Shown here: positions 10,573-19,606 of the stretch, piece by piece | Position numbering within the stretch: position 1 is the stretch's first letter | How the letters are laid out: every line of letters begins with the position of its first letter | Assembly: GCF_000381265.1 (NCBI RefSeq) | Contig: NZ_KB906283.1 | Coordinates: forward strand, 1 to 63,039 | Length of the DNA: 63,039 bases | Source: Curvibacter lanceolatus ATCC 14669 | Lineage (GTDB): Bacteria > Pseudomonadota > Gammaproteobacteria > Burkholderiales > Burkholderiaceae_C | Direction of reading: 5' to 3' | Translations under genes and position numbers: made by a program | The notes under the pieces: generated by a model | The model's input: only the letters and a program-made list of their open reading frames with translations | Told to the model about the DNA's origin: nothing | Databases searched by the model: none

Positions 10573-11505
10573 ATGATTTCCGTGAAAGACATTGCATTCG
10601 TTCGCTACCAGGCGACCGACCTGGACCTGATGGAGAAGTTCATGCTGGACTTCGGGCTCTATCGCATCGAACGCACCGACCAGGTGCTTTACCTGCGCTC
10701 CAGTGGAACGGCTCACCACTGCCACATCACCGAGCTGGGTGAGACCAACGCGACCCTGGGCTTCGGCTTGCACGCCCAGAGCGAAGCCGACCTTCACAAG
10801 CTCGCGTTGGAAGTGAATAGCAGCGTGGAGGACAACCCCGAGCCCGGGGGTGGCATGCGCGTGCGTTTCCGGGATCCGATGGGCTTCCTCGTGGACGTGA
10901 TCCATGGCCAGGCCACCCTGCCCGAACTTCCGCACCGCGAGCCTCTGTTGATGAACCCGGCCACAGGTCGCGCGCGCTTCGGCAAGGTGGTGCGCTTGAA
11001 GCCGCAGCCTTCAACGGTGATGCGCCTGGGTCATGCCGCGCTGCTGGTGGCGGACTTTCCGAAAGCGCTGGACTTCTACACTCGCGTGCTGGGCTTCCGC
11101 CCCTCCGACACTTACCACGCAGGCCACCCCGACAACAAGATCGCCGCCTTCATGCATTGCGGGCTCGGCTCGCAATGGACCGACCACCACACGCTGGCCG
11201 TGATCGCCTCGCCCGATGGCAGCAACCGCTTCGACCACACCGCATTCGAGGTGCTGGACCTGGACGACGTGGTGCAAGGCAACGAACACCTCAAGTCCAA
11301 GGAGTGGAAGCACTCCTGGGGCGTCGGCCGCCACATCCAGGGCAGCCAGCTCTTCGACTACTGGCGAGATCCGTTCGGCAACAAGGTTGAGCACTGGACC
11401 GATGGCGACCTCGTGAACGAGAACACGCCGGTCGGCAACGACCCCATCAGCAACGAGGAACTGCGCCAGTGGGCACCTCCTCTGAACCCCGAATTCTTTG
11501 CCTGA
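10573..11505 (+). CDS. Type I extradiol ring-cleavage dioxygenase (VOC fold)
   Basis: 310 residues, ATG at 10573 with an AAAGGAA site. Two vicinal-oxygen-chelate modules are visible (residues about 1-125 and 145-285). The 2-His-1-Glu iron triad of type I extradiol dioxygenases is present as His154 (RLGHAALLV), His222 (FDHTAFEV) and Glu273 (NKVEHWTDG). The length and layout match 2,3-dihydroxybiphenyl dioxygenase and HsaC-like enzymes, which cleave catechols next to the hydroxyls (meta-cleavage) with O2. It is the first gene of the long rightward operon and logically acts on the diol made by the monooxygenase at 4187-5464. The exact catechol is unknown. Confidence 0.9.
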   Translation: MISVKDIAFVRYQATDLDLMEKFMLDFGLYRIERTDQVLYLRSSGTAHHCHITELGETNATLGFGLHAQSEADLHKLALEVNSSVEDNPEPGGGMRVRFRDPMGFLVDVIHGQATLPELPHREPLLMNPATGRARFGKVVRLKPQPSTVMRLGHAALLVADFPKALDFYTRVLGFRPSDTYHAGHPDNKIAAFMHCGLGSQWTDHHTLAVIASPDGSNRFDHTAFEVLDLDDVVQGNEHLKSKEWKHSWGVGRHIQGSQLFDYWRDPFGNKVEHWTDGDLVNENTPVGNDPISNEELRQWAPPLNPEFFA

Positions 11506-11544: not shown

Positions 11545-12444
11545 ATGAAACTGGCTCGCTTTTCCCGGGATGACCGCACCACCATCGGACTCGTTCGCGA
11601 GGGCCGCGTGATCGAGTTGTCCCAACTCCTGCCCGACGCGCCATCCACCGTCACCGGAGTGCTCGCTGCCGGCGCGGCGCTGCGCCAGCAGATCAACGCC
11701 GCCCTGAGCCAGCAGCCGGCTGGCGCCGGCTATGCGCTCACCGAGGTGAAGCTCGAAGCCCCGATCCCCGACGCGCAGAAATACCTCGCCATCGGGATGA
11801 ACTACCAGGACCACGCCGACGAGGCGGCACGAGCGGGCGTGGCCGTCCCCAAGAACCAGCTTTGGTTCAACAAGCAGGTCAGCTGCATCACGGGGCCCTA
11901 TTCGCCGGTCTACAAGCCGCGCGTGTCTACCAAAATGGACTACGAGGCCGAGATGGGCGTGGTGATCGGCAAGCGCTGCCGCTACGTTTCTGAAGCCGAT
12001 GCGCGCAGTGTGGTCGCGGGCTACTTTGTCGCCAACGACCTCACGGCGCGCGACTGGCAGTTCGCCAGCCCGACCTTCACGCTGGGCAAGTCATTCGACA
12101 CGCACGGCCCGATCGGCCCCTGGATCACCACCCACGACGAAATCGACGACCCGCACGACCTCATGATGCGTTTGTGGGTCAACGGCGAACTGCGCCAGGA
12201 GCAGAACACGGGCCAGATGATCTACAACATCTGGCAGCAAATTCACCACCTGTCCCAGGTGATGACGCTGGAGCCCGGTGACCTGATAGCCACCGGCACC
12301 TGTGCCAATGTGGGCATCGCCCTGGGCAAGTTCTTGCAGCCGGGTGACGTCGTCAAGGTCGAGATCGACAAACTGGGCTACATCGAAAACCGTGTCATCG
12401 AAGAGCCCGTCGAAGACCACGTCCCCGACGCCGCCGCATTGTGA
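11545..12444 (+). CDS. Fumarylacetoacetate hydrolase (FAH) family protein
   Basis: 299 residues. The FAH fold is shown by YLAIGMNYQDHADEA (residues 80-94). Metal ligands are in the DYEAEMGVVIGKR block (Glu134, Glu136) and in the VANDLTARDWQ block (Asp165), followed by GKSFDTHGPIGPW. Members are Mg/Mn-dependent hydrolases, hydratases or decarboxylases that act on acylpyruvates, oxalocrotonate-type dienoates and similar products of aromatic breakdown. Following the extradiol dioxygenase by 39 bases, it most likely hydrolyses or decarboxylates the ring-fission product, taking the place of the alpha/beta hydrolases seen in Bph or Hsa pathways. Confidence 0.92.
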   Translation: MKLARFSRDDRTTIGLVREGRVIELSQLLPDAPSTVTGVLAAGAALRQQINAALSQQPAGAGYALTEVKLEAPIPDAQKYLAIGMNYQDHADEAARAGVAVPKNQLWFNKQVSCITGPYSPVYKPRVSTKMDYEAEMGVVIGKRCRYVSEADARSVVAGYFVANDLTARDWQFASPTFTLGKSFDTHGPIGPWITTHDEIDDPHDLMMRLWVNGELRQEQNTGQMIYNIWQQIHHLSQVMTLEPGDLIATGTCANVGIALGKFLQPGDVVKVEIDKLGYIENRVIEEPVEDHVPDAAAL

Positions 12445-12469: not shown

Positions 12470-15445
12470 ATGAAACGCACGATCTTCCGGACCATTCTCT
12501 TTGCGTTGGGCCCCATGCTCAACCGGGTCGCGGGCACGCGGCCTGCCTTTCGGGTACGGCTCAAACAGCACGACATCGTTGCCCAGATCGGGCTCAAGGA
12601 CGGTAGCATCGTGCGCCACTTCATCATCGGCGCTGGCAAGGTGAAGTCGGTGGCCGGCGCTCACCTGCGCCCGCACGTGAACATGGTCTTCAAGGACGTG
12701 GACACGGCGCTGCTGATGATGAAGCCCGACCCGGACATGGGCGAAGTCGTGCACGCTGCCAAGAACTTCAAGGTCATGGTCATGGGGCCGGATCCCCTGG
12801 TGGTCTGGTTCATGCAGCTGCTCAATTTCTCGCAGACCTCCGGCCTGCAGATGGGCACCCCCATGCCCGACGGTTGCACGCGCTTCACGATGTTGACCAA
12901 CGGGGGGCCTCTGTTCGTGCATGTGAAGGACGACATGATCGTGCGCATGACGCCGATCGACCTCGACAAGACGGACGCGCCGAGCTGGACGATCCGCGCC
13001 AGAGGACGCAGCTTCACGCCGCGCCGCCAGGCGACCATCGCCCCGCATGCCATGGCCATGAAGTCGGCGGTGTACTCCGACAAGCGCATCCTCTACCCGA
13101 TGAAGCGCGTGGACTTCGACCCCCACGGCGAACGCAATCCGCAGAACCGGGGCAAGAGCGGCTACGAGCGCATCAGCTGGGACGAAGCACTGGACATCGT
13201 GGCCGGCGAGATCAAGCGCCAGAAGGCAACGTATGGCCAAGGATCGATGGTCATCCCGATGTCGTCACACCACCAGTGGGGCAATGTCGGTTACTACCTG
13301 AGCGCGCTGATGCGCTTTGGCAACCAGATCGGTTTCACCCGCATGGCCGCCAACCCCGACAGCTGGGAAGGCTGGTACTGGGGGGCCATGCACCACTGGG
13401 GACACAGCCAGCGAGTGGGCATCGCGGCAGCCTATGGCACGGTGGAAGACTGTCTCAAAGAGAGTGAGCTGATGGTGTTCTGGTCAAGCGACCCGGAGAG
13501 CACCAACGGCGCCTACATGGGTTTCGAGGGCACGCAGCGCCGGCTCTGGGCGAAAGCACTGGGCATCGAGTTCATCCACATCGACCCGCACTACAACCCC
13601 ACGGCGCAACTGCTTGGCGGGCGCTGGATACCGATCAGGCCGCAAACCGATGCTGCGCTGGCTCAGGCCATCATGCAGGTGTGGGTAGCCGAGGGCTTGT
13701 ACGACAAGGACTATGTCGCCACGCGCACCACGGGTTTCGACGACTGGCGCGACCACCTGCTGGGCAAGGACGACGGGGTACCGAAGACGCCGGAATGGCA
13801 GGAGCCTGAGACCGGTGTGCCGGCCCGGGTGGTGCGGGCGTTGGCCCGCCAATGGGCCAGGAAGAAGACCTACCTCGCGGCCGGTGCCAATGGCGGCGGC
13901 TTCGGGGGCGCCTGCCGGGGCGCAGGCGGCGCCCAGTGGGCCCGCTGCATGGTCATGATGATGGCCATGCAGGGCCTGGGCAAGCCCGGCGTCAACATGG
14001 GCAACCTGCAGGCAGGCGCGCCGGTGGACTACGAGTTCTATTTCCCAGGCTATGCCGATGGCGGGATCTCGGGCGAGCTGCAGTGGAACGGCAACTCGGT
14101 CAACAACTACCAGAAGATGCCGCATGTGATCTCGATGAACCCGGTGCGCCAGTTGGTGCCGCGCCAGCAGTTCCCCGAGGCCATCATCGAAGGCAAGGCG
14201 ACAGGCTATCTGTGGGATGGCATTGCCACCGAGATCCAGTTCCAGCCCTATAGCTACCCGATGCCTGGTTACCCCCGCATCCACATGATCTACAAGTACG
14301 GTGGATCGGCGTTCAGCACGCTGACCGAGTCGAACCGCATGGTGGCGGCCTACCGCCACGAGAGTATCGAGTGCGTGGTCAACCAGTCGATATGGATGGA
14401 GGGCGAAACTCAGTTCGCGGACATCATCTTGCCGGCCTGCACGAACTTCGAGCGCTACGACATCGGCGAATGGGGCGCAGGTGGCGGCTACCTGCAGCAC
14501 GGTTTCGATGGCGTCAACCACCGAGTCATCGCGCTGCAACACAAGTGCATCGAGCCGCTGGGCGAGTCGAAGTCCGACTACCAGATCTTCACCGACATCC
14601 TCACCCGCCTGGGTCTGGGTGCGATCTTCACCGAAGGCTGCAGCGAGCTTGACTGGGTCAAGCGGGTGTTCAAGTCATCGGACGTGGCCAAACGCATCTC
14701 CTGGCAGGCGTTCTGCAAGAAAGGTTACTACGTGGTGCCTCCGGAGCCCGAGGCCACCCGCGCACCGGTGGTCTTCCGCTGGTTTGCCGAGGGCAGGATG
14801 AAGGACGTCCCGGAAGCCCAGCCATTGCCGTCGCAATGGGCCGGCGATTTCGGCAAGGGCTTGCAGACGCCGAGCGGCAAGTTCGAGTTCATGCCCGAAA
14901 CCCTGAAGCGTTCCGACCCGGACAACGCCGAGCGCCCGGTGCTCAACCGCTACATCCCGTCGTGGGAAGGGCGGCAGACCGCCGCGCTGACCGGGCGATT
15001 CCCCTTGCAGATGATTGCCACACACTCACGCTACAGCTTCCACACCAACGTGGACGGCAAGAACAGCTTCACCAACGACATCGAAGACCACCGGGTCCTG
15101 ATCGCCGGCCACTACTACTGGCTGCTCAGGATGAGCGTGCAGGACGCGCGAGCCCGGGGCATTGAACACCACGACCTGGTCAAGGTGTTCAACGACAGGG
15201 GTGCCGTGATCTGCGCGGTCGACGTTTCACCGATGGTGGCGTCGGGCGTCGTCAAGTCCTTTGAATCGAGCGCTGAGTTCGAGCCGGTGGAAATCGACGG
15301 CGAATGGGTGGACCTGGGCGGGTGCATGAACACACTGACGCCGTCGCGCTCGCAGATGCGTGGCACCAGCAGCATGTCGCCGAACTCGTGTCTGGTGCAG
15401 GTGGAGAAATGGACGCATGAAGCCCGTGTGCGCAAGGTGGCCTGA
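12470..15445 (+). CDS. Molybdopterin oxidoreductase large subunit, pyrogallol-phloroglucinol transhydroxylase / resorcinol hydroxylase type, with extra N-terminal SCP2-like domain
   Basis: 991 residues from the ATG at 12470; the frame is open upstream but that part overlaps the FAH gene. From about residue 137 to the end it follows the transhydroxylase large subunit, as I recall it, almost without gaps: FVHVKDDMIVRMTP, SYERISWDEA-like text, SSHHQWGNVGYY, NPDSWEGWYWG, VFWSSDPES, DYEFYFPGYADGGISGE, FADIILPACTNFER. Equivalents of the Pelobacter active site are kept: His267 (His144), Asp297 (Asp174), Ser298 (Ser175, the Mo ligand) and the Tyr of FYFPGYA (Tyr404). There is no Cys motif for an Fe-S cluster in this subunit, as in the family. 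Residues 1-130 are extra and look like an SCP2 lipid/hydrophobe-binding domain. The protein has no Tat signal and should be cytoplasmic. Confidence 0.87.
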   Translation: MKRTIFRTILFALGPMLNRVAGTRPAFRVRLKQHDIVAQIGLKDGSIVRHFIIGAGKVKSVAGAHLRPHVNMVFKDVDTALLMMKPDPDMGEVVHAAKNFKVMVMGPDPLVVWFMQLLNFSQTSGLQMGTPMPDGCTRFTMLTNGGPLFVHVKDDMIVRMTPIDLDKTDAPSWTIRARGRSFTPRRQATIAPHAMAMKSAVYSDKRILYPMKRVDFDPHGERNPQNRGKSGYERISWDEALDIVAGEIKRQKATYGQGSMVIPMSSHHQWGNVGYYLSALMRFGNQIGFTRMAANPDSWEGWYWGAMHHWGHSQRVGIAAAYGTVEDCLKESELMVFWSSDPESTNGAYMGFEGTQRRLWAKALGIEFIHIDPHYNPTAQLLGGRWIPIRPQTDAALAQAIMQVWVAEGLYDKDYVATRTTGFDDWRDHLLGKDDGVPKTPEWQEPETGVPARVVRALARQWARKKTYLAAGANGGGFGGACRGAGGAQWARCMVMMMAMQGLGKPGVNMGNLQAGAPVDYEFYFPGYADGGISGELQWNGNSVNNYQKMPHVISMNPVRQLVPRQQFPEAIIEGKATGYLWDGIATEIQFQPYSYPMPGYPRIHMIYKYGGSAFSTLTESNRMVAAYRHESIECVVNQSIWMEGETQFADIILPACTNFERYDIGEWGAGGGYLQHGFDGVNHRVIALQHKCIEPLGESKSDYQIFTDILTRLGLGAIFTEGCSELDWVKRVFKSSDVAKRISWQAFCKKGYYVVPPEPEATRAPVVFRWFAEGRMKDVPEAQPLPSQWAGDFGKGLQTPSGKFEFMPETLKRSDPDNAERPVLNRYIPSWEGRQTAALTGRFPLQMIATHSRYSFHTNVDGKNSFTNDIEDHRVLIAGHYYWLLRMSVQDARARGIEHHDLVKVFNDRGAVICAVDVSPMVASGVVKSFESSAEFEPVEIDGEWVDLGGCMNTLTPSRSQMRGTSSMSPNSCLVQVEKWTHEARVRKVA

Positions 15446-15446
15446 C

Positions 15447-16307
15447 ATGGATAAATGGAATCTGATCATTGATGTCGCCGGCTGCGAGAACTGCAACAAC
15501 TGCGTACTTGCCTCGAAAGACGAGCTGGTGGGGAATGACTTCCCGGGCTATACAGCCCCGCACCCTGCCCAGGGCCGTGGCGTGATTCACATCGAACGCA
15601 CGGTGCGCGGCGCGGCCCCCTTGGTGGACGCGGCCTATGTGCCGAAGATGTGCAACCACTGTGACGATGCGCCCTGCGTGAAAGCGGGTGAAGACGGCGC
15701 GGTCCGGAAACGGGACGATGGCATTGTGATCATCGACCCGGTCAAGGCGAAAGGCCGTCGCGATCTGGTGGACGCCTGTCCCTATGGCGCCATCGTCTGG
15801 AACGATCCGCTGCAACTGCCGCAAAGCTGGTTCTTCGACGCGCACCTGCTGGACACCGGGGCTGGCGCCCCGCGTTGTGTCGGTGTGTGCCCCACGCAGG
15901 CCATTGAAGCCGTGAAGCTGGGCGACGCCCTCATGGCGCAGCGCGTGAAAACCGAAGGGCTGCGCGCGCTCCAACCCGAGCTCGGGACCAGGCCCCGCGT
16001 CTACTACAAGAACCTGCACCGCGCCGACCACGGCTTCATCGCAGGCAGCGTGGCGGCCACGGTGGGGGGGCGCCTGGAGTGCCTGGAGGGCGCCGACGTG
16101 GCGCTGTTGCGAGCGGGCGCTCAGCTCGCCACCACGGTCACCGATGTGTTCGGTGATTTCAAGTTCGATGCACTGCCGCTGCACAGCGGGGCCTACCTGG
16201 TGCGCGTCTCGCATCCCGACCATGGGGCCATCGAACGCCCGGCGAGCGTCGGTGCAGACAGTGTGGTGCTGCACGACGTCGAACTCGAAGCCATCACCCA
16301 ACCCTGA
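15447..16307 (+). CDS. Fe-S / transthyretin-like small subunit of the transhydroxylase-type Mo enzyme, with one cluster's ligands missing
   Basis: 286 residues, ATG one base after the large-subunit stop. N-terminal ferredoxin-like repeats: CENCNNC (motif I), CNHCDDAPC (motif II), DACPYGAIVW (motif III) and PRCVGVCPTQA. The LGTRPRVYYKNLHR stretch follows, then a C-terminal beta domain (about 195-280) with VFGDFKFDALP. These match the transhydroxylase small subunit, which carries three [4Fe-4S] clusters plus a transthyretin-like domain. Here the fourth Cys of motif I is Ser (CVLASKDE), and the usual C-x2-C before AHLLD is replaced by SWFFD. Nine cluster-type cysteines remain instead of twelve. 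Function: electron transfer or structural partner of the Mo subunit. Confidence 0.87.
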   Translation: MDKWNLIIDVAGCENCNNCVLASKDELVGNDFPGYTAPHPAQGRGVIHIERTVRGAAPLVDAAYVPKMCNHCDDAPCVKAGEDGAVRKRDDGIVIIDPVKAKGRRDLVDACPYGAIVWNDPLQLPQSWFFDAHLLDTGAGAPRCVGVCPTQAIEAVKLGDALMAQRVKTEGLRALQPELGTRPRVYYKNLHRADHGFIAGSVAATVGGRLECLEGADVALLRAGAQLATTVTDVFGDFKFDALPLHSGAYLVRVSHPDHGAIERPASVGADSVVLHDVELEAITQP

Positions 16308-16536: not shown

Positions 16537-16585
16537 CCAATCACCTTCGGTCTGAAGAAACTTGTTCAACCCCCAGGAAACCACC

Positions 16586-18040
16586 ATGTTCAATGTCAAT
16601 CTGCTGATAGCCGGAAACAGCGTTCCGGCCTCGAATGGCTCCACCTTCGAGCGTCGCAATCCGATGTCCCAGGAGGTGGTCTCGCGTGCCGCCGCCGCGA
16701 CACCGGCCGATGCCGTTGCAGCTGTTGAGGCCGCTTCGGCAGCCTTCAAGAATTGGTCCCAGCAAGGTCCCAGCGCACGCCGGGCGCTGCTGCTCAAGGC
16801 CGCACAGCTGCTCGAATCCAAGACGCCTCAATTCATCGAGGCGGTGTGTGCCGAAACCGGCGCGACCGGCATGTGGGCCGGCTTCAACGTCCACCTCGCT
16901 GCGGGTGTGCTGCTGGAAGCGGCTTCGCTGACCACCCAGATCACCGGAGAGGTGATCCCCTCCGATGTGCCGGGCAGCCTGGCCATGGCCGTACGCCAGC
17001 CCGCTGGCGTGGTGCTGGGAATGGCCCCGTGGAACGCACCGGTGATCCTGGCGGTTCGGGCCATTGCCACACCGCTGGCCTGTGGCAACACCGTGGTGCT
17101 CAAGGCATCGGAACTGTGCCCGCGCACGCACCAGCTGATCATTGAAACGCTGCAGGAAGCGGGCTTCCCACCGGGCGTGGTGAACTTCGTGACCAACGCG
17201 CCAGCCGATGCGGCGGCAGTGGTCGAAGCCATGATCGCGCACCCCTCCGTGCGTCGCGTCAACTTCACCGGGTCCACCCGGGTCGGTCGCATCATCGCCA
17301 CCACCTGCGCCAAGCACCTCAAGCCCTCCGTGCTGGAACTCGGCGGCAAGGCGCCCCTGGTGGTGCTGGACGACGCCGATCTGGACGCCGCCGTGAACGC
17401 TGCTGCTTTCGGTGCATTCATGAACTCGGGCCAGATCTGCATGTCGACCGAGCGCATCATCGTCGCCGAGACGATCGCCGATGAGTTCGTGGCGCGCCTG
17501 GTTGCCAAGGCCAGCCGCCTGCCCCTCGGTGACCCGCGCGGCAAGGATCCGGTGGTGCTGGGTTCCGTGGTGGACAGCAGCACCGTGCAGCGCTGCAACG
17601 CGCTGATCGACGATGCGGTGGCCAAGGGCGCGAAGCTGCTGTGCGGCGGTCAGGCCGACAGCACCCTGATGCCCGCCACGCTGCTGGACCACGTGACGGC
17701 CGACATGGCCATCTACAGAGACGAGTCGTTCGGACCGGTCAAGCCGATCATCCGTGTGAACGGCGTCGAAGAAGCCATCGCCTGCGCCAATGACACCGAG
17801 TACGGGCTGTCGGCCGCCGTTTTCGGGCGCGACGTAGCGCGCGCGCTGCAAGTGGCCGGCCGCATCGAATCGGGCATCTGCCATGTCAACGCATCGACCG
17901 TGCACGACGAAGCGCAGATGCCTTTCGGCGGTGTGAAGTCCAGCGGCTTCGGTCGCTTCGGCGGCCGTGCAGGTGTGAACGAGTTCACAGAACTGCGCTG
18001 GGTCACGGTGCAGACCACGCCACGTCACTACCCCTTCTGA
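16586..18040 (+). CDS. NAD(P)-dependent aldehyde dehydrogenase
   Basis: 484 residues, start ATG at 16586 with an AGGAA site; the upstream ATG at 16562 lacks one. Family marks: PWNAP with Asn150, the nucleotide-binding FTGSTRVGR (about 227-235), the general base Glu251 in LELGGKAP, and the nucleophile Cys285 in SGQICMSTER. A C-terminal GGVKSSGFGRFGG tract is also present. The length fits the ALDH superfamily, and the wording is nearest to salicylaldehyde/vanillin or 2-hydroxymuconic-semialdehyde dehydrogenases. In this operon it probably oxidises an aldehyde released from ring-fission chemistry or an aromatic aldehyde substrate. Confidence 0.95.
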   Translation: MFNVNLLIAGNSVPASNGSTFERRNPMSQEVVSRAAAATPADAVAAVEAASAAFKNWSQQGPSARRALLLKAAQLLESKTPQFIEAVCAETGATGMWAGFNVHLAAGVLLEAASLTTQITGEVIPSDVPGSLAMAVRQPAGVVLGMAPWNAPVILAVRAIATPLACGNTVVLKASELCPRTHQLIIETLQEAGFPPGVVNFVTNAPADAAAVVEAMIAHPSVRRVNFTGSTRVGRIIATTCAKHLKPSVLELGGKAPLVVLDDADLDAAVNAAAFGAFMNSGQICMSTERIIVAETIADEFVARLVAKASRLPLGDPRGKDPVVLGSVVDSSTVQRCNALIDDAVAKGAKLLCGGQADSTLMPATLLDHVTADMAIYRDESFGPVKPIIRVNGVEEAIACANDTEYGLSAAVFGRDVARALQVAGRIESGICHVNASTVHDEAQMPFGGVKSSGFGRFGGRAGVNEFTELRWVTVQTTPRHYPF

Positions 18041-18074: not shown

Positions 18075-18968
18075 ATGAGTTTCATTTTCAAACCCAATGT
18101 GCGCTATCGGATGCCGGTGGTCTTCGGGCCCGCGCCGGGCCCCCGTCAGAAACACGATGGCACGCCCTGGCAGGCCGAAGAGTCCGGCACCGCCAACGTG
18201 CAGTGGGCGACCATCGCGTACCGCACCCACAAGGACAAGCTGGAGGCCTTGCTGCCACCGGGCTTTCGCCTCAACGGCGATCCCCTGGTGTATGTCACGC
18301 TGGGGTTTTTCCGCGACCTGTACTGGCTGGCCGGACGGGGCTACGGGCTGGTCAACGTGGAAGTGCCTGTGATCTACACCGGCAAGTCCGAGACCGTCGA
18401 GGGCGGCCTCTGCCTGTCGATCTGGGAGGGGCGACCGGATGCCATCATGACCGGTCGCGAAGAGCTGGGGTTTCCCAAACTGTTTGCCGACATCCCGGAT
18501 GTGCGCCTGGCCCCAGACAGCGGCACCTTGAGCGGCCAGGCCTCCTGGCTCGACTTCAAGTTCTTCGAGATGGAGATGCACGGCATTGAAGAGACCACCG
18601 TGGACAACATGAATCTGCTCGGGGCACCCGGCGGGCCCATCTTTTACAAGTACATGCCACGCACCGGCCCCTTTGGTTCTGGCGGGGCCGACGTCACGTA
18701 TGTCACCACTTCGCAACCGATGCAAGGCGCGTCCCGCGGAACTTCGCCCATCAAATTTGAAGATGCTGCCTTCAGGAAGTGGAAGGCCAAGGGCGGGTCG
18801 GTGAAGTGGCACCGCGCCACCTTCGAGCAGTTGCCCACGACGTGCCATGTCGTCAACGGCATTGCCGACCTGGAGATCCTGGAGTATGTGAGCGCCGAGA
18901 TGATCGAGTTCTCGGCTCCGGGCAATGCCGTGGCGACCAACAGCCACCGGGTGGTCGAGCCCGCATAA
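18075..18968 (+). CDS. Acetoacetate decarboxylase family protein
   Basis: 297 residues, ATG at 18075 after an AAGGAG site. The acetoacetate-decarboxylase-like fold is indicated by LLPPGFRLNGDPLVYVTLGFF (about 60-79) and the catalytic-region motif GREELGFPKLFADI. Lys135 there is in the place of the Schiff-base lysine of acetoacetate decarboxylase. Known family members decarboxylate beta-keto acids, or act as aldolase-dehydratases or tautomerase-like enzymes. Placed between an aldehyde dehydrogenase and a RutE-like reductase, it plausibly decarboxylates a keto acid from the cleavage pathway, but substrate is not readable. Confidence 0.85.
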   Translation: MSFIFKPNVRYRMPVVFGPAPGPRQKHDGTPWQAEESGTANVQWATIAYRTHKDKLEALLPPGFRLNGDPLVYVTLGFFRDLYWLAGRGYGLVNVEVPVIYTGKSETVEGGLCLSIWEGRPDAIMTGREELGFPKLFADIPDVRLAPDSGTLSGQASWLDFKFFEMEMHGIEETTVDNMNLLGAPGGPIFYKYMPRTGPFGSGGADVTYVTTSQPMQGASRGTSPIKFEDAAFRKWKAKGGSVKWHRATFEQLPTTCHVVNGIADLEILEYVSAEMIEFSAPGNAVATNSHRVVEPA

Positions 18969-19012
18969 GCCGCCCTCAAGCCCAAACGTCCATCACCGAA
19001 AGACATCACAAC

Positions 19013-19606
19013 ATGACCCAAGCCCTTGACTCAACCGCCCTGGACCAGCTTTTCCTGGCCGCGCGCACCTACAACAAGTTCACGACCGAGCCCGTCAGCG
19101 ACGACCTGCTCAAGCAGCTGTACGACCTGTACAAGTGGGGCCCGACTTCCATGAACACGCAGCCTGGCCGAGTGGTTTTCGTGCGCAGTGTCGAGGGCAA
19201 GGAAAGACTGAAACCCGCCCTGATGCCCAACAACGTGGAGAAGACCATGGCAGCCCCCGTGGTGGCCATCGTCGCCTTTGACTCCACCTTCTACGAGCAC
19301 ATGCCGACGCAGTTTCCCGCCAATCCCGGCGCACGCGACATGTTTGCCAACAACGCGGGACTGAGCGCGGAAACCGCCTCCCGCAACAGCGCCCTTCAAG
19401 GCGCCTATCTGATCATGGCGGCCCGTGCCCTGGGTCTGGCCGCCGGGCCCATGAGCGGCTTCAATCCCGCGGCAGTGAATGAGGCCTTTTTTCCCGATGG
19501 TCGCTTGAAGGTCAACTTCCTGATCAATCTCGGCTGGGGTGATCCATCGGGCAACCGTCCGCGCGGGCCCCGTCTGGCATTCGAGGACAGCGTCGTGATG
19601 GCCTGA
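19013..19606 (+). CDS. RutE-like nitroreductase-fold enzyme (malonic semialdehyde reductase type)
   Basis: 197 residues; the ATG at 19013 opens the family sequence. It follows E. coli RutE closely along its length as I recall it: AARTYNKFTTEPVSDDLLK, KWGPTSMNTQPGRVVFVR, EGKERLKPAL, APVVAIVAFDSTFYE, AYLIMAARALGLAAGPMSGF and the FLINLGWGD end. These are FMN-dependent NAD(P)H reductases of the nitroreductase superfamily; RutE reduces malonic semialdehyde to 3-hydroxypropionate. No other rut genes are nearby, so here it may reduce a C3 semialdehyde or an enone made from the aromatic ring. Forty-four bases separate it from the ADC-family gene. Confidence 0.85.
   Translation: MTQALDSTALDQLFLAARTYNKFTTEPVSDDLLKQLYDLYKWGPTSMNTQPGRVVFVRSVEGKERLKPALMPNNVEKTMAAPVVAIVAFDSTFYEHMPTQFPANPGARDMFANNAGLSAETASRNSALQGAYLIMAARALGLAAGPMSGFNPAAVNEAFFPDGRLKVNFLINLGWGDPSGNRPRGPRLAFEDSVVMA

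Follow-up and report, generated by a model that had tools for sequence, protein, structure and literature searches.

The window discussed here is a stretch of 63,039 nucleotides from Curvibacter lanceolatus ATCC 14669 (contig NZ_KB906283.1). One of its genes encodes what is, from its sequence, the large subunit of a molybdenum/iron-sulphur (Mo/Fe-S) enzyme of the family that includes resorcinol hydroxylase (RhL) and the pyrogallol transhydroxylase of Pelobacter acidigallici (PgtL), a branch of the DMSO reductase superfamily. The enzyme is probably an oxygen-independent hydroxylase of phenols. Ahead of the catalytic core the protein carries an extra domain, and structure prediction supports an SCP2-like fold for it. 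The domain is shared by a whole clade of related enzymes and is lacking in PgtL. As a tentative reading, held with a little less than even confidence, the domain of this long form binds a lipid or quinone and docks the enzyme at the membrane for the exit of electrons, in a pocket that may also hold phenols.

An N-terminal domain with an SCP2-like fold

The PgtL large subunit (4v4c_A) matches residues 137-983 of the window protein, starting from its own chain residue 5 (phmmer, E 2.3e-276). Since the alignment begins only at residue 137, residues 1-136 (12470-12877) have no counterpart in PgtL, as an earlier note on this DNA had claimed. In the core, Pfam finds the AhtL-like domain 1 (PF21423) at residues 146-199 (98.7 bits, cut-off 27), followed by a molybdopterin and then a dinucleotide-binding domain, all three above their Pfam cut-offs, and Foldseek aligns the core with 4v4c at 48% identity and a template modelling (TM) score of 0.90 on the target. 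Ser298 pairs with Ser175 of PgtL in the alignment. This serine, His267, Tyr275, Trp299 and Tyr528 are invariant in all 37 long rows, and Asp297 is present in 33 of the 37; these are the counterparts of active-site residues of PgtL, catalytic ones among them. A serine is tabulated as the Mo ligand of both RhL and PgtL in PMC10100899.

An AlphaFold model of residues 1-136, built from 45 aligned sequences, has a mean predicted local distance difference test score (pLDDT) of 87.7, the five models ranging from 74.0 to 87.7. The predicted elements are helices at residues 2-23 and 25-31, four strands within residues 36-74, two helices at 77-84 and 90-98, a strand at 102-105 and a last helix at 108-123. 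They are nearly identical in the full-length model, where block means are 81-96 over residues 1-130. When the 1-136 model was compared with the PDB using Foldseek, UbiJ-SCP2 ranked first (E 2.2e-6, TM 0.59 on the query and 0.68 on the target). Among the best 50 of 594 matches at E <=10, rows 1-40 are SCP2, UbiJ-SCP2 or alkylsulfatases of the SdsA1/YjcS kind, and the first match of another type is a methyltransferase at rank 41 (E 0.013). All 27 PDB chains at E <=0.001 are SCP2, UbiJ-SCP2, AF1534/TT1886 or alkylsulfatase/YjcS structures, the last of which bear an SCP2-like C-terminal domain. With TM values of 0.42-0.61 on the query and 0.50-0.69 on SCP2-sized targets, the similarity is clear, not close.

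Profile-profile comparison with hhalign points in the same direction. An enlarged profile of 37 fused and 26 stand-alone sequences aligned to a profile of 28 SCP2 domains with a probability of 87.7 (P 3.4e-6), and the fused forms by themselves reached 20.2 (P 1.1e-3). Against single SCP2 groups, which are labelled by motif, the probabilities ranged from 2.7 to 71.8, the lowest value being obtained when the fused forms alone were compared with three classical SCP2 sequences. The signal comes mainly from the UbiT-like group (58.8) and grows once the stand-alone relatives are included. Controls consisting of 12 core segments and 18 reversed or shuffled sequences gave probabilities of at most 0.5 (P >=0.11).

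Searches with the window sequence alone did not match any SCP2 model in Pfam, NCBIfam or the PDB sequences. For residues 1-136 the best Pfam match was the GNAT family at E 0.14, the best match in both NCBIfam and the PDB sequences was DNA helicase II (E 0.29 and 0.73), and the profile of the fused forms found only V-ATPase subunit D among the PDB sequences (E 0.4 and 0.78). The suggestion in the earlier note that the extension folds like SCP2 is thus borne out by the predicted structure, the Foldseek ranking and the profile-profile comparison, while the Pfam profile proposed as a check (PF02036) failed to match the window sequence but did match eight of the 37 relatives weakly (best E 0.0021), which is more members than any other family matched. 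Because the gathering cut-off of PF02036 (21.3 bits) was reached neither by the window sequence nor, judged by their E values, by these fused relatives nor by seven stand-alone relatives, the domain is called SCP2-like here and not a member of PF02036. It is probably homologous to SCP2.

The extension is under purifying selection. The ratio of nonsynonymous to synonymous substitution rates (dN/dS) over codons 1-136 is 0.12 against locus L001 and 0.07 against L065, and 0.07 over the remainder of the gene in both comparisons.

Long and short forms of the enzyme

The same architecture was found in nearly all close relatives. Among the best 80 of 247 relatives retained from genome contigs, the alignment begins at residue 1-9 in 79, and at residue 78 in the remaining one (L070), which lies at its contig edge. 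The 79 include locus L049 of Aromatoleum anaerobium LuFRes1, a resorcinol degrader. The fusion therefore marks a clade and is not peculiar to the window genome, and the survey of homologues asked for in the earlier note has an affirmative answer. Among the best 40 of 269 matching plasmid records, eight show 59-71% identity, and every one of these aligns from residue 1; the matches of the remaining 32, at 25-28% identity, begin no earlier than residue 116.

Forms without the domain were found in two genome searches, which share the genomes G430, a deltaproteobacterial metagenome-assembled genome, and G431. Ten genomes reached through the loci gave 17 matches, of which 11 are long (from residue 1-9), five are short (46-54% identity, first matched residue 123-191) and one is distant (29% identity). 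In a 345-genome sample of the phylum of G430, where two candidates per genome were scored so that the counts are lower bounds, nine genomes gave 15 matches: at least five long, at least seven short (46-54%) and at least three more distant (37-38%). The open reading frames (ORFs) of the short forms extend at most a few tens of residues past the match and have a methionine near residue 137; that of L156 is cut by the contig start. In 21 loci scanned with a profile of the domain only the six long forms matched, and no separate copy of the domain was found beside the short forms. A search with PF21423 across 398 genomes of the window's phylum gave the gene of the window genome alone above the cut-off, together with one sub-threshold match, and did not find the short forms.

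G430 and G431 each hold both a long and a short form, in G431 on the same contig: the short PgtL-like L155 (5164-7728) and a long SCP2-bearing form (C85:19223-22159) are separated by roughly 11 kb, in which IclR, ABC transporter, BKACE and SDR genes are found.

A tree was built from the core only (residue 137 onward) by a quick method with SH-aLRT support alone, from 53 rows and then from 54 with the PDB sequence included; it was rooted on three distant rows, whose branch is long. A branch with support 100 separates all 40 long rows from the others, and one change of the long/short label suffices for the tree. The LuFRes1 gene sits in the long clade. PgtL lies among the short forms, where the transhydroxylase PDB sequence clusters with L154-L156 (support 98). 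The long clade has the PgtL-type group as its sister; the support for this was 100 at first and fell to 80 once the PDB sequence, with its long end branch, was added. Under the outgroup root, the simplest reading is that the domain was gained once by a PgtL-like ancestor and was not lost among the sampled rows.

Relatives of the domain also occur as stand-alone proteins of about 125 residues (in frames of about 120-250 amino acids). There are 26 matches of this kind (L085-L110), found in 24 genomes besides the window's own among 398 sampled. Four of seven scored 13-17.9 bits against Pfam SCP2 (17.9 bits corresponding to E 0.004), and three gave no match. None of three scanned against NCBIfam matched a family there, and one stand-alone relative is annotated in its public record as belonging to the SCP-2 sterol transfer family. 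The only above-cut-off Pfam SCP2 match in the window genome lies elsewhere, near the C-terminus of the protein encoded by L083 (1-1779), which by eye resembles an alkyl-sulfatase.

Possible roles of the domain

In the docking reading, which we favour tentatively, the SCP2-like domain would bind a lipid or a quinone and, together with its cationic first helix, would anchor an otherwise soluble enzyme at the inner membrane. The reaction would be a net oxidative hydroxylation in which a phenol and water give a polyphenol and two electrons, and the electrons would leave through the Fe-S clusters of the small subunit to a membrane acceptor, helped by the domain. The same pocket may also accept hydrophobic phenols with a long side chain. 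The product of the window enzyme would most likely pass to the extradiol dioxygenase encoded just upstream.

Docking is favoured because the probable gene of the respiratory enzyme, that of LuFRes1, belongs to the long clade and the fermentative enzyme to the short forms: according to PMC10100899, RhL hydroxylates resorcinol as a respiratory electron donor, while PgtL serves fermentative growth. It is further favoured because the window and LuFRes1 branches retain the domain and in neither of them was an acyl-CoA synthetase found near the gene; the ratio of domain to core divergence is also lower there (1.64 in the window group and 1.50 in the LuFRes1 group, the value being 2.42 for the group to which the acyl-CoA synthetase loci belong). 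A third reason lies in the first helix, which is cationic and amphipathic. Its lipid-binding score D (best of eight windows) is at least 1.34 in 28 of 37 relatives, compared with 280 of 3769 core segments scored identically. A contact of this helix with lipid or membrane is possible. The resorcinol-hydroxylating activity of A. anaerobius is reportedly membrane-associated.

Several points weigh against docking. RhL is tabulated as cytoplasmic in PMC10100899, and two characterised enzymes are the basis of the redox link. The divergence ratio is likewise 2.42 in a single deltaproteobacterial pair that has no acyl-CoA synthetase nearby, and it is 1.68 in a fourth group. Finally, an acyl-CoA synthetase is encoded near the enzyme in 40 of the 80 loci, which indicates a hydrophobic substrate instead.

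The last point leads to the idea put forward in the earlier note, namely that the SCP2-like pocket captures the hydrophobic part of a phenol, for instance an alkylresorcinol or alkylcatechol tail, and offers the ring to the Mo site. We regard this as a real possibility, without leaning to it overall. It has a parallel in UbiJ and UbiT, which have been proposed to present ubiquinone intermediates to hydroxylases: UbiJ binds ubiquinone intermediates (PMC6747719), and the SCP2-containing UbiT acts with the O2-independent hydroxylases UbiU-UbiV (PMC6747719; PMC10470549). UbiJ-SCP2 being the top structural match of the domain speaks for the same idea. So does the genomic context: in blast searches at E 1e-8 over flanks of at most 6 kb, an OmpW/FadL-type channel was found in 28 of the 80 loci, together with the acyl-CoA synthetase in 27, and fumarylacetoacetate hydrolase (FAH) family genes in 55, along with VOC/extradiol genes. 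The loci with synthetase and channel are mostly from the Burkholderia group and rhizobia, and the synthetase is also found in Pseudomonas. Clusters combining extradiol-type, FAH, acyl-CoA synthetase, OmpW and Mo enzyme genes occur in the Burkholderia group (L016, L020, L022, L026-L031, L033-L042 and others), and have the appearance of a pathway that degrades hydrophobic phenols. A mimosine pathway, an idea prompted by the rhizobial hosts, was dropped, as nothing in the literature searched tied it to the Mo enzyme.

Against capture, the ten loci closest to the window gene (L001-L008, L011 and L065; 75-95% identity) yielded no relative of acyl-CoA synthetase, OmpW or FadL, such absences being uncertain since the flanks are short and some are cut by contig ends. 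The aldehyde dehydrogenase gene downstream in the window suggests an unsubstituted ring position, and the LuFRes1 branch retains the domain though resorcinol, the RhL substrate, has no tail (PMC10100899). Capture of hydrophobic phenols is plausible in those subclades that encode an acyl-CoA synthetase and OmpW/FadL close to the enzyme. It fits the window operon and the resorcinol branch less well; for these two, docking at the membrane or to a quinone is roughly equally likely. Docking and capture may both be true, in different subclades.

It is unlikely that the domain is a purely structural module, an SCP2 fold that has lost ligand binding and now shapes assembly, stability or the contact with the small subunit or another partner. 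Such a role would agree with the faster divergence of the domain than of the core in all five groups compared (ratios 1.50-2.42) and with the weak Pfam SCP2 match, and K98, G106, G129 and G135, which are invariant in 37 rows, could be interface residues. The stand-alone relatives speak against it, as they indicate that the SCP2-like fold has a use outside the enzyme, and so do the 27 positions within residues 1-123 that are hydrophobic in at least 95% of the rows. An artefact, in which the start was misread or the extension belongs to an unrelated ORF upstream, is suggested only by a longer frame from GTG 12302, which leaves the start unfixed by the frame alone, and it is most improbable and already contradicted, because that frame overlaps the preceding gene, relatives align from the methionine at 12470, and the extension is conserved as protein in 79 of the best 80 relatives, with low dN/dS and a confidently predicted fold.

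Gene neighbourhood and known systems

The cluster of the window consists of MFS transporter and GntR regulator genes (divergent), followed by genes for the extradiol-type enzyme, the FAH family protein, the large and small subunits, the aldehyde dehydrogenase, an acetoacetate decarboxylase (ADC) family protein, a nitroreductase and TctC. The dioxygenase and FAH genes lie upstream in all ten nearest loci. An Fe-S small subunit encoded beside the large one is as expected for the RhL/PgtL branch; it matches Fer4_11 (1.6e-18, above cut-off) and, below its cut-off, CarboxypepD_reg (3.9e-6), and its start was set by likeness to an ORF of L049 opening with MKKWNLIID. The product of 19010-19603, in the same cluster, exceeds the NCBIfam cut-off for PRK05365, the malonic semialdehyde reductase family.

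Table 1. Coordinates of the large-subunit gene, its parts and neighbouring genes in the window.
Feature	Position	Strand	Basis or remark
Large (Mo) subunit, transhydroxylase/resorcinol-hydroxylase type, long form	12470..15445	+	991 aa; ATG start, stop ends at 15445
SCP2-fold domain (predicted), residues 1-123	12470..12838	+	AlphaFold models, Foldseek, hhalign
First helix, residues 2-23, cationic and amphipathic	12473..12538	+	Lipid-binding score D
Linker, residues 124-136	12839..12877	+	G129 and G135 invariant across 37 aligned rows
Catalytic core, residues 137-991	12878..15442	+	phmmer, Pfam, Foldseek
Small subunit: 4Fe-4S dicluster domain and C-terminal CarboxypepD_reg-like domain	15447..16307	+	Pfam
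Extradiol-dioxygenase-type (VOC) ring-cleavage enzyme	10573..11505	+	In 10/10 loci nearest the window gene
FAH family protein	11545..12444	+	In 10/10 loci nearest the window gene
Aldehyde dehydrogenase, best NCBIfam HpaE (below cut-off)	16568..18040	+	Relatives in 4/10 nearest loci
ADC family protein	18075..18968	+	Relatives in 4/10 nearest loci

The enzyme family and the SCP2 fold are already known; no description appears to exist of the two together, of the single origin of the fusion or of how it relates to the long/short split. No SCP2 domain in this enzyme family was found in the open-access literature searched, mostly as titles and the beginnings of abstracts, so that a mention elsewhere is possible, and the term SCP2 is absent from the available text of PMC10100899, a review covering both RhL and PgtL. 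The remark in the earlier note that no description of the fusion was known has thus held within this literature. It is conceivable, if rather doubtful, that joining a lipid-carrier domain to a phenol hydroxylase that needs no O2 sets apart a branch of Mo enzymes working at the membrane or on lipid-like phenols, a one-polypeptide version of UbiT plus UbiU-UbiV that feeds ring cleavage of compounds of the resorcinolic-lipid type in many soil- and plant-associated proteobacteria. The finding also draws attention to unstudied clusters in genomes of the Burkholderia group, rhizobia and Pseudomonas, which are likely routes for hydrophobic phenols.

Compared with PgtL, the window protein has core sequence and fold in common over residues 137-983, and residues identical to the active-site residues His144, Tyr152, Ser175, Trp176 and Tyr404 of PgtL are aligned in it. 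Arg153 of PgtL, also in the active site, is replaced by tyrosine in 32 and by tryptophan in five of the 37 long rows, and PgtL is without the SCP2-like domain. There is thus a domain-level difference between the related pyrogallol transhydroxylase and resorcinol hydroxylase, and a suggested cause is that only one of them needs an external electron acceptor, or that one handles greasier substrates.

RhL of Azoarcus/Aromatoleum anaerobius is represented by L049, which shares the long architecture, is 64% identical to the window protein and belongs to the same clade. L049 is probably the RhL gene itself, strain LuFRes1 being the same as Azoarcus anaerobius. Its neighbourhood is unlike that of the window: no acyl-CoA synthetase, OmpW/FadL or FAH gene was found at the locus, nor a relative of the window dioxygenase or FAH protein at E 1e-10, and its neighbours are ORFs resembling 2-oxoacid dehydrogenases (by eye), a VOC protein and a Phenol_MetA_deg protein.

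Other enzymes with an SCP2-like domain are the alkylsulfatases SdsA1 and Pisa1, whose structures (2cfu, 2yhe) Foldseek matched over about 90 columns; there the domain is C-terminal, the catalytic fold is different and Mo is absent. The closest structure remains UbiJ-SCP2. UbiJ and UbiT are SCP2 accessory proteins of ubiquinone synthesis, and both serve ring hydroxylation (PMC6747719; PMC10470549). They are separate accessory factors, whereas the SCP2-like domain of the window protein is part of the Mo-enzyme polypeptide, so that the fusion would be the in-cis counterpart of the arrangement of UbiT with UbiU-UbiV.

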